DNA from: Candidatus Flavonifractor intestinigallinarum
GTDB lineage: Bacteria; Bacillota; Clostridia; Oscillospirales; Oscillospiraceae
NCBI GenBank assembly: GCA_019119165.1
Contig: DWXO01000056.1
Span: 1-52,313, forward strand
DNA length: 52,313 nt
Reading direction: 5' to 3'
Part shown: piece after piece, positions 12,714 through 20,318 of the stretch
Numbering within the stretch: the first letter of the stretch is position 1
Layout: the number at the start of each line of letters is the position of its first letter
Program-made: the position numbers and the translations under genes
Notes under the pieces: generated by a model
The model's database searches: none
What the model was told of the DNA's origin: nothing
Seen by the model: only the letters and a program-made list of their open reading frames with translations

Positions 12714-13346
12714 TCACCTGTCAAAGAGATAAGACTTGACCAGAGCCAACGGCTCCCGGATGTACATTTTCAGCCGGGAGGGGATGTGGGAGCTGGGGGC
12801 CGCCAGAGTGGACAGGGTGTACTCCCCCTCCCATGCTCTGTCCCACAGCATCCGCACCCGGGCCAGATGGAAACCGTTGGACACCACCAGCATCTCGCTG
12901 GTGTCCACCCCCTCCGCCTGGAGCAGTTCCTGGGTGAAGCAGATATTCTCCCAGGTGTTGTGGGACTGGTCCTCCATCAGGATCTGGCCGCCGTCCACAC
13001 CGTGGGCCGTCAGGTAGTCGTACATACACTGGGCCTCGCTCTGGTGCTCGTCATCCCCCTGGCCGCCGGAGACCACGATGGTCAGGTCCGGGTGGTCCTC
13101 CAGATAATCCAGCGCCTTGTCCAGCCGGTCCTGAAGCAGAATGGACGGTCCCCAGGACTCCACCTTGCAGCCCAGGATTACCATGACCTGGGGCTGGCCC
13201 ACAATGTGGTCCCGGGCCCCCGTCAGCACCACGCCCAGCAGCACCGCAAAACTCAGCAGCGCGGCCAGCACCGCCGCCAGCAGGGCCAGCAGCCACACCG
13301 GCTTTTTGCGCCCGCCGTAGGGCCGGTAATACTGCTTCTTCCTCAT
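12714..13346 (-). CDS. DUF218/YdcF-SanA family membrane protein
   Basis: One N-terminal membrane helix (about residues 15-38) anchors an extracytoplasmic DUF218 domain. It contains the family's VMVILGCKV, the DRLDKAL helix, TIVVSGGQG and MEDQSHNTWENI. Relatives (SanA, ElyC, YdcF) affect envelope integrity but have no agreed reaction. The ATG at 13346 overlaps the stop of the ABC-F gene in an ATGA arrangement, so upstream in-frame codons are not used. This implies translational coupling. Confidence 0.85.
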   Translation of the reverse strand: MRKKQYYRPYGGRKKPVWLLALLAAVLAALLSFAVLLGVVLTGARDHIVGQPQVMVILGCKVESWGPSILLQDRLDKALDYLEDHPDLTIVVSGGQGDDEHQSEAQCMYDYLTAHGVDGGQILMEDQSHNTWENICFTQELLQAEGVDTSEMLVVSNGFHLARVRMLWDRAWEGEYTLSTLAAPSSHIPSRLKMYIREPLALVKSYLFDR

Positions 13347-15244
13347 CCCCTGGCCTCCTCCAGCTCTGCCGCCAGGGTCTCCCACTTGGTATAGAGGGCT
13401 GCGATCTCGTCCTCCAGCGCCTTCTGCTCCTCGTACACCTTCTGGAGCTCCAGGTAATTGGAGGCCACCTCCTCGGCTTTCAGGGACAGCTCATACTGCC
13501 GCTCCTCCGCCTTGGCCACCGCACGCTCCGCCGCGGCCACCTGCTTCTCCAGCTCCTTGGTGCCGCCGGGACGCTTGGGCTTCTCCTTCTTAGGCTTCTC
13601 CGGCTCCGCCTTCACCGGGACGGCAGCCTGGTTTTTGGCCCGCTCCCGGGCGGCCCGGAACTCCTCAAAGGTGCCCCGGAAGTCGGTGATGTGCCCGTCC
13701 TCCAGCATCCAGATCCGGGTGGCAAACTGCTTGATAAAGTAGCGGTCATGGGACACGAAGAGCAGGTTGCCCTCGTACTCCGCCACCGCCTCCTCGATCC
13801 ACTCCCGGCTGGCGATGTCCAGGTGGTTGGTGGGCTCGTCCAGAATAAGCAGGTTGATCTGCTCGTCCATCAGCATACACAGCCGCAGGCGGCTCTGCTC
13901 GCCGCCGGACAGGGCGGACACCGGCTTGAACACGTCCTCTCCCCGGAAGTTGAAGGCGGCCAGCCGGTTGCGGGCGGTCTGGGTGGAGCAGTCCTGATCG
14001 TAGATCATGGTATCCACCAGGTTGCGCTCCGGGTGGGAGAAATGGATGATCTGGGGCAGGTATCCCACCTTTACAGTGGGCCCCATCTTTAGCTTTCCGC
14101 TATCCGGCTCCTCCTCCCCCAGCAGAATTTTCAGCAGGGTGGATTTTCCGGTGCCGTTGTCCCCCAGCAGGGCGATGCGCTCGCCCCCCACCACCTCCAG
14201 ATTGACGTGGTCGAAGAGGGTGCGCCCGTCAAAGGACTTTTTCAGCTCCTTGATGGTCAAAACCTCGTCACCCCGGAACTCCCGCTCCCCGAACTTCATA
14301 TCCAGGCGGCGCTCCCTGGTGGGTTTATCGGTGGTGCGCAGGCGCTCGATCCGCTTCTCCATGGACTGGGCCCGCTTGAAGGTCTTGTCGTTGCCCGAGT
14401 AGGCCCACACCCGCAGCTGCTGGGCGGCCTTCTCCAGCTGCTCGATCTTGGCCTGCTCCTTCTCGTACTGCTTCAGCTTCTCCTGGTAGCGGTGCTCCTT
14501 CTCCACCACATAGAAGGAGTAGTTGCCCTCGTAGAACTCCGCCTTGCCCTCCTGGATCTCGATGATCCGTTTCACCACCCGGTCCAGGAACCAGCGGTCA
14601 TGGGAGATGGCAAGGACGGTGCCTTTATAGCGGTCCAGATATTCCTCCAGCCACTCGGTGGCCCGCAGGTCCAGGTGGTTGGTGGGCTCGTCCAGCAGCA
14701 GGATGTCGGTATCCTCCAGAATGAGCCGGGCCAGGTTGACCCGGGTCTTTTCCCCGCCGGACAGAGAGGAAAAGAGCTGGCCTCTCATGTCCTGAGAGAT
14801 TTCCAGGCCGTTGCACACCTTGTTCAGGGGGGTGCTGGTATCGTAGCCGCCCCCCGCCTCATAGGCGGCGGTGAGGGCGTCGTACCGCCGCAGCAGAGCC
14901 GGGTCGCTGTCCCGGCCCATGCGCTCGGTCAGCTCCGCCATCTCCCGCTCCATAGCCTGGAGCCGCCCAAAGGCGGTCTGGAGCACGTCCTCCACTGTGT
15001 ACTCCGGGGGATAGACGGGAATCTGGGAGATCAGTCCCACCCCTTTGCCGGGGGCGATGTGGACCTCGCCGTCGTCCCAGTCCAGCTCGCCGGTGAGAAT
15101 CTTGAACAGGGTGGTCTTGCCGGCGCCGTTTTTGCCCAGCAGGCCCACCCGCTCCCCCTGGTCGATCTGGAAGGTGAGGCCGTCCAATATTTTTTTGCCT
15201 ACCTCGAACTCCTTGGACAGGTTCGAGACGGAGATATCGATCAT
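13343..15244 (-). CDS. ABC-F family ATPase
   Basis: A soluble protein with two ABC ATPase domains and no membrane segments, the class that acts on ribosomes. Walker A motifs are GKNGAGKTT (about residue 37) and GDNGTGKST (about 360). Signature motifs LSGGEKTR and LSGGEQSR and Walker B LLLDEPTNHLD follow in order. A charged C-terminal coiled coil (about 545-630) matches the Uup/YdiF/YfmR housekeeping group. A role in antibiotic resistance cannot be read from the sequence. It starts at ATG 15244, back to back with the mtnA promoter. Confidence 0.92.
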   Translation of the reverse strand: MIDISVSNLSKEFEVGKKILDGLTFQIDQGERVGLLGKNGAGKTTLFKILTGELDWDDGEVHIAPGKGVGLISQIPVYPPEYTVEDVLQTAFGRLQAMEREMAELTERMGRDSDPALLRRYDALTAAYEAGGGYDTSTPLNKVCNGLEISQDMRGQLFSSLSGGEKTRVNLARLILEDTDILLLDEPTNHLDLRATEWLEEYLDRYKGTVLAISHDRWFLDRVVKRIIEIQEGKAEFYEGNYSFYVVEKEHRYQEKLKQYEKEQAKIEQLEKAAQQLRVWAYSGNDKTFKRAQSMEKRIERLRTTDKPTRERRLDMKFGEREFRGDEVLTIKELKKSFDGRTLFDHVNLEVVGGERIALLGDNGTGKSTLLKILLGEEEPDSGKLKMGPTVKVGYLPQIIHFSHPERNLVDTMIYDQDCSTQTARNRLAAFNFRGEDVFKPVSALSGGEQSRLRLCMLMDEQINLLILDEPTNHLDIASREWIEEAVAEYEGNLLFVSHDRYFIKQFATRIWMLEDGHITDFRGTFEEFRAARERAKNQAAVPVKAEPEKPKKEKPKRPGGTKELEKQVAAAERAVAKAEERQYELSLKAEEVASNYLELQKVYEEQKALEDEIAALYTKWETLAAELEEARG

Positions 15245-18928: not shown

Positions 18929-18975
18929 CTCCCTTTCCGCCTTCTGTGCATGAAATCTTTCTTTTTCTCCGTCCC

Positions 18976-19004
18976 TTGACATCCCTCCGCCATTCTGTTA
19001 CATT
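18976..19004 (+). promoter_or_regulatory. Sigma-A promoter of the MFS transporter leader
   Basis: A perfect TTGACA, 17 bp, then TACATT preceded by TGT (an extended -10). Transcription would start near 19011, giving a leader of about 130 nt before the MFS start codon. Confidence 0.75.
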
Positions 19005-19039
19005 GAATCTGGAATTTCCTCTCCTGGAGGCACACAACC

Positions 19040-19066
19040 ATGCTGTACCGGTCCGATCCCACCTGA
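19040..19066 (+). CDS. 8-codon leader peptide (MLYRSDPT)
   Basis: A very short reading frame with its own strong ribosome site (GGAGG, 9 nt before the ATG), encoding MLYRSDPT and then TGA. Codons 5-7 (19052-19059) are perfectly complementary to 19129-19136, next to the ribosome site of the downstream MFS gene. This is the arrangement of regulatory leader peptides in drug-inducible resistance genes. Its translation is inferred from the ribosome site and position only. Confidence 0.55.
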   Translation: MLYRSDPT

Positions 19067-19136
19067 ATGTGCATCTGACAATCAGGCGCTGGGTGCCAGC
19101 GTCTTGTTTTGATGCCCAACTACAGGAAGGATCGGA
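19052..19136 (+). promoter_or_regulatory. Putative translational attenuator of the MFS gene
   Basis: TCCGATCC (19052-19059) pairs exactly with GGATCGGA (19129-19136). After a 2x2 internal loop, CCT (19062-19064) pairs with AGG (19124-19126). The 11 pairs bury the AGGAAGG ribosome site of the transporter. Between the arms sits a 9-bp hairpin (19084-19104, AGGCGCTGG with CCAGCGTCT) followed by TGTTTT, which could also act as a transcription attenuator. A ribosome stalled on the leader ORF would free the ribosome site. Confidence 0.55.
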
Positions 19137-19143
19137 TTTTTTC

Positions 19144-20283
19144 ATGAGACGTAATATCAGGTATATGTACGCCATCGCCCTCTTGCAGGGCATGGTCTTT
19201 TACGGCCCTGTGGCCACCCTCTATCGGGAGGCCCAGGGGGTATCCATCGCCCAGATCACCCTGATCGAGAGTATCTCCCTGGCGCTGTGCATCCTGCTGG
19301 AGGTGCCCTGGGGGGTGCTGGCCGACAAGCTGGGCTATAAGCGCACCATGATCGGGTGCTGTCTGCTCTATTTCCTCTCCAAAATCGTGTTCTGGCAGGC
19401 CGACGGCTTTGGCGGCTTTTTGCTGGAGCGGGTGATGCTCAGTGTGGTGATAGCCGGGATGTCCGGGGTGGATACCAGCATCCTCTATCTCTCCTGCGGA
19501 AAAGAGGACAGTCAGCAGGTCTTTGGGTGGTACAACACCCTCCAGACCGCCGGGCTGCTCATCGCCGCCCTCACCTTCTCCCTGTTCATCGGGGACAACT
19601 ACGCCCTCGCGGGAGGGCTCACCGTCCTCAGCTACGGCGCCGCCGCCCTGTGCGCCCTGGGCCTGACCGAAGTAAAGGCCCCCGCCCCCTTCTCGGTCCG
19701 TCAGGCCATGGACGTCCTGCGCCAGACCCTGACCAACCGGCGGCTGCTCCTCTTTCTGCTTTCCGCAGCCCTGCTGACCGAGGCCCATCAGACCATCACC
19801 ACCTTTTTCAATCAGCTGCAATATGCCCGCTGGGGCCTGTCCAGCGCCGCCATCGGCATCTTGTATATCGCCGCCGTGCTGCTGGGCCTGTCGGGGGTAT
19901 GGTCCGCCCGTCTGACCAACAAAACCGGCCCTCTGTGGGGGGGCGTACTTCTCTGCTCCGCCGCCGTACTGGCCTGTACCGCCCTGGCCCTCAGTACCGG
20001 AGCGGTATCCTCCGTATGCGCCATTCTGGCCCTGCGCCTGTCCAACACCCTGTTCCAGCCCTTCCAGATGGAGCTGCAAAACAGGCAGGTCGTCACAGAA
20101 CACCGGGCCACCGCCCTGAGCATCCACGCCATGGTCATAGACGGGGTCGGTGTGTGTACCAACCTGGCGTTTGGGGCTCTGGCGGAGGTCGATCTGACCT
20201 GCGCCTTCTGGTTCGGCGGCGGGATCTGCCTCACCGGACTGGTCCTCTTTTTGATCTGGTACAAGCTGCGCCCCCGGGCATAA
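19144..20283 (+). CDS. MFS transporter (putative drug exporter)
   Basis: A 379-residue integral membrane protein with about 12 hydrophobic helices and the MFS motif A between helices 2 and 3 (GVLADKLGYKRTM). No substrate can be read from the sequence. The leader suggests an inhibitor of translation, by analogy with other attenuated efflux genes. The ATG at 19144 follows AGGAAGG at 13 nt, a long gap for a ribosome site. An 11-codon frame (19112-19147, starting MPNYRK) ends over this ATG in an ATGA overlap and could couple translation. It ends at a bidirectional terminator. Confidence 0.88.
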   Translation: MRRNIRYMYAIALLQGMVFYGPVATLYREAQGVSIAQITLIESISLALCILLEVPWGVLADKLGYKRTMIGCCLLYFLSKIVFWQADGFGGFLLERVMLSVVIAGMSGVDTSILYLSCGKEDSQQVFGWYNTLQTAGLLIAALTFSLFIGDNYALAGGLTVLSYGAAALCALGLTEVKAPAPFSVRQAMDVLRQTLTNRRLLLFLLSAALLTEAHQTITTFFNQLQYARWGLSSAAIGILYIAAVLLGLSGVWSARLTNKTGPLWGGVLLCSAAVLACTALALSTGAVSSVCAILALRLSNTLFQPFQMELQNRQVVTEHRATALSIHAMVIDGVGVCTNLAFGALAEVDLTCAFWFGGGICLTGLVLFLIWYKLRPRA

Positions 20284-20318
20284 AAGGAAACGGCCGCCGA
20301 TGGCGGCCGTTTTCCTTT
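20282..20318. terminator. Bidirectional terminator
   Basis: A GC-rich stem CGGCCGCC/GGCGGCCG flanked by AAAGGAAA and TTTTCCTTT. It ends the MFS gene (+) and the SLH protein gene (-), which converge here. Confidence 0.9.

Follow-up and report, generated by a model that had tools for sequence, protein, structure and literature searches.

Conservation of a Pro-X-stop leader peptide and of a Shine-Dalgarno-masking stem points to a probable ribosome-operated switch ahead of an MFS exporter family

In the erm/cat model of translational attenuation, a ribosome held on a short leader ORF opens a structure that masks the downstream Shine-Dalgarno (SD) site (PMC10219788, PMC13410324). On MsrDL, a leader of six residues (MYLIFM), erythromycin blocks termination, with both release factors blocked at the stop codon (PMC10314930). 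In E. coli, the uORF ToiL of topAI pairs with the downstream SD site, which is freed by a halted ribosome (PMC12121999), and in Clostridia the uORF of CplR (MR[I/M]) undergoes an antibiotic-induced halt ahead of an ABC-F gene, where a terminator is combined with SD masking (PMC10201436). Termination can be a target on human ribosomes as well, where the compound PF846 blocks it when the chain ends in Asn-Pro-Asn-stop; at position -2 there is an enrichment of Pro or Val, and the Pro contacts rRNA (PMC7532171; review PMC13410324). The NPN end alone is insufficient for this effect, and about 15 residues of helical chain are needed (PMC7532171).

The arrangement considered here was found in a stretch of 52,313 nucleotides from Candidatus Flavonifractor intestinigallinarum, called the window in the following, and its features lie on the forward strand unless stated otherwise. 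A consensus scan (10 of 12 matches) predicts a sigma-A-type promoter at 18976..19004, with TTGACA from 18976, a spacer of 17 nt, and TACATT up to 19004. A short 5' leader ORF with its own SD site, as in the erm/cat type, is present downstream: the GGAGG site (19026..19030) precedes the eight codons of MLYRSDPT-stop (19040..19066, ATG...TGA), which ends in Pro-Thr-stop. The putative regulated gene (19144..20283) encodes an MFS transporter of 379 amino acids and has the SD site AGGAAGG (19124..19130). This site is covered by the 3' arm (19123..19138) of a masking stem, P1, whose 5' arm (19050..19065) falls within the leader ORF and its stop codon; both arms were delineated by folding, complementarity and covariation. 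Inside the stem, TCCGATCC at 19052-19059 is the exact complement of GGATCGGA at 19129-19136, and CCT at 19062-19064 pairs with AGG at 19124-19126. A first-pass annotation of this DNA had listed the promoter, the leader and its GGAGG, the 8-bp complementarity with three extra pairs, the AGGAAGG site and a hairpin followed by TGTTTT, and all of its coordinates were reproduced by script. The predicted arms of P1 are longer than it claimed; over their full length they contain two G-U pairs, and 2 nt in the interior are mismatched. Between them, the fold shows an inner stem, P2 (GCATC/GATGC, 19071..19115), enclosing P3, a 9-bp GC hairpin with a loop of 3 that a hairpin scan placed at 19084..19104, directly followed by TGTTTT. 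For the 156-nt region a minimum free energy (MFE) of -56.3 kcal/mol was obtained (z -3.51), with 0 of 200 shuffles equally stable; the complementarity score of the arms, 28.6 against a shuffle mean of 15.7, was reached by 0 of 100 shuffles. The computation thus yields the second erm/cat-type feature, a predicted structure that sequesters the SD site of the main gene and that a leader ribosome would disrupt, although not in every homologue. A second small frame at 19112-19147 (MPNYRKDRIFS-stop), also named in the first-pass annotation, does exist, its TGA overlapping the start codon of the MFS gene, but a comparable ATG frame recurs in only 9 of the 83 homologous leaders described below and is thus not conserved. 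Beyond the 3' end of the MFS gene lies a terminator-like GC hairpin (20288..20312), which the scan lists for the minus strand only and which, by eye, may serve as a terminator on the plus strand. At about 4 kb from the MFS gene, a 633-aa ORF on the minus strand (13343-15244) has the look, by eye, of an ABC-F-type ATPase.

The strongest feature of the leader, missed in the first-pass annotation, is its conserved Pro-X-stop end. For the comparison, 110 upstream loci were collapsed to 93 distinct upstream regions; 31 upstreams came from the genome search, L024 was excluded from the 93 owing to a misplaced start, and L017-L019 and L035-L043 were left out as fragments or distant relatives. Frames of 5-20 codons with a final P-[TISVHFA] were searched, no SD site being required and the shortest frame being taken. 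A short frame ending in Pro-X-stop is present in 83 of the 93 regions, and a retained exporter with a lost leader, the case that the earlier annotation had named as contrary to its proposal, is accordingly not the general situation. The residue X is Ile in 49 of these leaders, Thr in 25, Ser in 4, Val in 3, and His and Phe in 1 each. All four Pro codons (CCC 33, CCG 25, CCA 20, CCT 5) and all three stop codons (TGA 49, TAA 27, TAG 7) are used, and the start codon is ATG in 81 cases and GTG in 2. With the shortest in-frame start, 67 leaders comprise five codons (M-x-x-P-I/T-stop), 6 comprise six, 8 comprise eight, and one each eleven and thirteen; these lengths are minimal readings, the five-codon length being a choice of reading, as a longer in-frame start is available in 28 of the 83 loci. 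A strict form of the motif, with 5-13 codons, a P-[IT]-stop end, an SD-like sequence and a distance of 60-120 nt from the MFS start, was encountered in 61 of the 93 upstreams. None of 1800 dinucleotide shuffles contained it, and of 545 controls, the upstreams of other mechanically called long ORFs of the same loci, 2 did. The copy on a Roseburia plasmid, fetched after the motif had been defined, reads MNRPI-stop.

Ten of the 93 regions are without a Pro-X-stop frame, namely the readable L016, L026, L027, L028, L029, L085, L096 and L117, the N-masked L119, and L068, which is cut by a contig end. Short frames of another kind, having Leu in place of the expected Pro, are seen in L016 (MNNVLH-stop), L026 (MSFDLN-stop), L029 (MKHLN-stop) and L085 (MNNLI-stop), while L027, L028, L096 and L117 have neither a Pro-X-stop nor a Leu-type frame. 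On re-reading, L024, which stands outside the 93, gave no Pro-X-stop either; its frame ATG AGC GTT CTG CGT TAA (MSVLR-stop) places Leu at the Pro position. The Leu-bearing short frames of L016, L024, L026, L029 and L085 are possibly a second leader type. A Paraclostridium copy of 28% identity also lacks the Pro-X-stop end. Judged from these upstream sequences, the broader MFS family appears to keep a short leader often, and not always the Pro-X-stop peptide. This copy lies on a plasmid of Paraclostridium bifermentans (L155); upstream of position 1501, ahead of the MFS gene, one can read by eye the frame MHLQD-stop with an SD site before it and a stem that would mask the SD site of the MFS gene, suggesting attenuation in the wider MFS group.

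The stem was followed through the same 83 loci. In 63 of them, and not in the other 20, three or more of the six best SD bases are paired with the leader frame in the MFE fold. The ungapped complementarity of the arms exceeds that of at least 95% of shuffles in 54 loci and that of at least 99% in 36, with 29 failing the 95% level. Compensatory changes, which the first-pass annotation had recommended seeking in an alignment of the leader, were found. The first MAFFT alignment (A2, 70 leaders) was too gappy to fold, giving 5 pairs, and was replaced by A4, with 38 rows cut back to the two complementary arms; A3, which aligned 14 leaders, was not used further. Of the 83 leaders, 46 had passed a filter on arm score and length, and 8 rows were then dropped by hand, L010, L065, L075, L094, L111, L112 and L123 for another stem register and L103 as a near-copy of L099. 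In A4, whose rows were preselected for arm complementarity, both partners vary in 15 of 20 pairs, and the covariation score was 0.311 versus 0.164 for shuffled alignments, a value that 0 of 500 shuffles reached, and no more than 0.096 for slid ones; the P1 value is biased upward because of that preselection. Within P3, 8 pairs were scored, and 7 of them have one or more rows in which both bases are changed. A permutation test on 80 unselected loci, pairing the codon before Pro with the three bases after an SD GG, pointed the same way: with the best GG, 2.44 of 3 bases paired versus 2.11 on permutation (0 of 2000), and with the last GG, 1.95 versus 1.78 (13 of 2000). Both the A4 score and the permutation test ignore the relatedness of the loci. 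In A2 and A4, many leaders have after P3 a run resembling TTTGTTGTGC; on visual inspection it is often complementary to a stretch further upstream that resembles GCACAACA, forming P2; the conservation of this run is not accounted for by the masking model.

The product of the downstream gene matches Pfam MFS_1 (1e-21) and reaches no curated NCBIfam cut-off (best 21 bits versus a cut-off of 427), and a PDB profile search returned weak MFS matches only, to a fucose symporter (2.4e-05), GlcP and NorA. The homologues at the loci used share 39-83% identity. Within the genus, a homologue is present in 14 of 20 genomes, the window's own included, and within the family in 36 of 300 at E <= 0.001, distant ones counted; from GTDB contigs, 80 loci were kept among 227 relatives taken by name. 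The hosts include Flavonifractor, Gemmiger, Lachnospiraceae, Lutispora, Desulfosporosinus, Hungatella and others, together with one Collinsella (Actinomycetota) and one Treponema MAG. Seven plasmid records carry relatives, the one from Roseburia with 51.5% identity and the other six with 24-28%. Clustering of neighbouring genes gave a largest cluster of 7 of 81 loci, all from one genus; a further cluster of 6 loci (L057, L077, L086, L094, L111, L113) is ABC-transporter-like, and two other clusters of 6 loci coincide in position with the MFS gene and are apparently readings of it in other frames. As no cluster exceeds 7 of 81 loci, the leader and the MFS gene seem to form one unit. In L017 (G015:C10), the MFS match extends over residues 153-379 only and contains two internal TGA stops, apparently a decayed copy.

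Set beside the described systems, these leaders share with ErmCL-ermC and the erm/cat type in general a short leader ORF and a structure-masked downstream SD site that would be opened by a leader ribosome. They differ from it in that their gene is an MFS exporter and in the leader itself, which usually has five residues, ends in Pro-X-stop and pairs directly with the SD site. MsrDL is likewise a very short leader, ahead of a resistance gene, and its stop-codon arrest is the closest bacterial precedent in the sources compared; its peptide is unrelated, neither MYLIFM nor LIFM being present in any of the 83 leaders, msrD is controlled by an intrinsic terminator, and the msrDL variants mostly end in UAA as against 49 TGA, 27 TAA and 7 TAG here (PMC10314930). 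With ToiL the leaders have in common that the ORF pairs with the downstream SD site; there, many antibiotic classes are sensed at many codons and the first seven residues are conserved, whereas here the conserved part is the end (PMC12121999). The ultra-short conserved uORF and the SD masking recall CplR, from which our leaders differ in gene, in peptide and in the terminator that CplR combines with SD masking, the antibiotic-induced halt being a property of CplR (PMC10201436). By analogy only, the PF846 arrest has the same Pro-X-stop shape; it concerns a human ribosome, a synthetic compound and no regulatory leader, its chain of about 15 residues exceeds most leaders here, and its -3 residue is N/D/H-like as against mostly R, S, C, N and F (PMC7532171).

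In the literature searched, no bacterial leader ending in Pro-X-stop was met, the leader of Mangano et al. from 2022 lying outside this comparison. Their work, on orthosomycin context sensing, reportedly describes a regulatory ORF. A possible preference of evernimicin for a Pro context is of interest as a lead. In general terms, evernimicin is stated to prefer particular contexts (PMC13410324). Rfam had no match in the window at the gathering score, nor any for 18950-19200 at E up to 1, and in six homologous loci it gave only two tRNAs, both in L053.

The architecture described in the first-pass annotation, a leader with an SD-masking stem as in erm/cat, is therefore supported, and it is correct and more general than stated. 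Comparison among the homologues shows that the micro-ORF is conserved at its end and that the stem, which would mask the SD site of the exporter, covaries. The leader is probably a switch operated by the ribosome, through which a disturbance of translation would activate the exporter; that a drug is what induces the exporter of the window, as the first-pass annotation supposed, is something we infer. In the reading that we consider likely, it acts as a translational attenuator, with a ribosome-acting compound presumably holding the ribosome at the Pro-X-stop end. The micro-ORF, to judge from its SD site, would be strongly initiated and constantly translated, and between translation events its last codons and stop would pair with the SD site of the exporter in the predicted off state. 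A compound acting on the ribosome would keep the leader from being completed, the halt falling most probably at termination on Pro-X-stop or immediately ahead of it; the halted ribosome would cover the 5' arm, free the SD site and permit synthesis of the MFS exporter, which would then presumably export the inducing compound.

The consequence of placing a ribosome on the leader was calculated by masking its footprint with the last codon in the P site and predicting the cost of freeing the six-base SD site. Over the 83 loci the median predicted cost falls from 8.5 to 2.1 kcal/mol, with a decrease of at least 3 kcal/mol in 64 and an increase in 2. For the window, where the script used AGGATC as the six bases, it goes from 13.0 kcal/mol unoccupied to 4.0 kcal/mol. 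When the ribosome is on the stop codon of this leader, a weak local hairpin still covers part of the SD site (unpaired probability 0.02-0.65 per base). Placing the start codon in the P site results in a median of 1.8 kcal/mol, about as good as the last codon, and a codon-by-codon walk of the ribosome makes little difference in most of the 13 leaders shown. Predicted folding energies do not separate stalling at the stop codon from stalling elsewhere in the leader and, with the energetics silent on this point, the placement of the stall rests on the conserved leader end. Along these lines, a ribosome halted anywhere in a very short leader might open the SD site, as proposed for E. coli toiL, with Pro-X-stop having no sensing role. 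Such a generic sensor, to which we assign a minor though real likelihood, agrees with the low predicted cost at nearly all ribosome positions in the walk, with the reading of 67 of 83 leaders as five codons, that is, within one ribosome footprint, and with the ToiL precedent (PMC12121999). It would not conserve Pro at -2 with Ile or Thr before the stop, nor would it keep Pro-X-stop in longer leaders or where the anti-SD sequence lies outside the frame.

A sensing role of the peptide end could also be directed at a cellular metabolite that inhibits termination, as tryptophan does on TnaC, so that the exporter would remove this metabolite and not an antibiotic. Tryptophan-dependent arrest on TnaC is known (PMC8429421), and both the failure of the MFS protein to reach a curated NCBIfam cut-off and the wide occurrence of its homologues in anaerobes are compatible with a metabolite substrate. 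We nevertheless regard this reading as unlikely, as a chain of few residues offers little nascent peptide for a metabolite site and a drug-dependent arrest on a six-residue leader is already known from MsrDL (PMC10314930).

The conserved end, on which the attenuator reading with a stall at Pro-X-stop depends, overlaps the masking stem, and one should ask how much of it is demanded by RNA pairing. The two C of the Pro codon are bound to the SD region in 73 of the 83 MFE folds; among the 38 preselected rows, the corresponding two columns form pairs in 37 and 38. With this frequency, pairing alone could explain much of the Pro, and the Pro-Ile/Thr-stop end could in principle be a by-product of an anti-SD sequence in a fixed frame (CCNAYCTGA), with translational coupling and no arrest. 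Two observations speak against this explanation. The first base of the last codon, which is without a standard pair in 33 of 38 aligned leaders, is still A in 74 of the 83, giving Ile or Thr, and this argues for selection on the peptide end too. Furthermore, in the clade of the five loci L030-L034 (SH-aLRT 100 in a quick tree), the SD region pairs with the stretch from the last base of the leader stop to 16 nt beyond, not with the Pro codon, and P-T/I-stop is retained in 5 of 5 despite the displaced anti-SD sequence, so that the peptide end itself seems to be selected. As frame and stop position are also conserved across families, an origin in RNA pairing without arrest is considered very improbable. 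The selected signal seems to be the peptide end Pro-[Ile/Thr/Ser/Val]-stop, its conservation being observed in the homologous upstreams and its part in an arrest being a plausible extension. Least probable of all is transcription attenuation, in which P3 and a U-rich tail would form an intrinsic terminator governed by the leader ribosome: the P3 of the window does score terminator-like, and CplR (PMC10201436) and MsrDL (PMC10314930) use terminators, but of the 38 aligned leaders 18 have five or more T among the 8 nt that follow P3 and 6 have six or more, and a ribosome at the leader end would be expected to free P3 and not to block it, the wrong direction for induction.

Occurrence of the leader ahead of other genes was surveyed in 391 genomes of the class with a covariance model (R1), built from 38 selected rows and run with strict filters. 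It returned 41 places in 37 genomes at E <= 0.05, of which the window (L124) and 29 further loci (L125-L153) were inspected. L125 (VCRPV-stop) and L138 (MSLLNNPT-stop) carry a Pro-X-stop leader, both ahead of the same MFS family, and L146 has a P-T-stop frame without an SD site. The other 26 inspected loci have no Pro-X-stop frame in the stretch examined, absence elsewhere being weak evidence given the strict filters and the 38-row model. The DNA pattern TTTGTTGTGC...TCAGAAAGGA was found in 0 of 394 genomes of the order and is too strict to inform. A second pattern, GGAG...ATG..CC.AYYTRA, had 21 candidate places in 20 of 99 relatives versus 7 for the reversed control; as G000 itself is without a match, this pattern does not capture the leader family. 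So far, the one MFS exporter family is the only client seen for the leader, mostly in Bacillota, with a Collinsella genome, a Treponema MAG and the Roseburia plasmid in addition.

SD-masking attenuation as such is already known, and what appears new is the unusual and widely conserved Pro-X-stop leader. That it represents a widespread new class of ultra-short arrest peptide, typically M-x-x-Pro-Ile/Thr-stop, which would halt the bacterial ribosome at termination in response to a compound for which no leader has so far been described, is a tentative proposal whose chances we put somewhat below even. Should the Pro-X-stop end be the arrest signal, it would be a very short one and would define a stalling context of Pro at -2, Ile or Thr at -1 and a stop codon in the A site. 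This context would lend itself to immediate in vitro assays with a range of ribosome inhibitors, and the compound that halts the ribosome would indicate what the MFS exporter family removes. Many anaerobes would then possess an inducible, unannotated efflux system, one copy of which resides on a plasmid of a pig-derived Roseburia.
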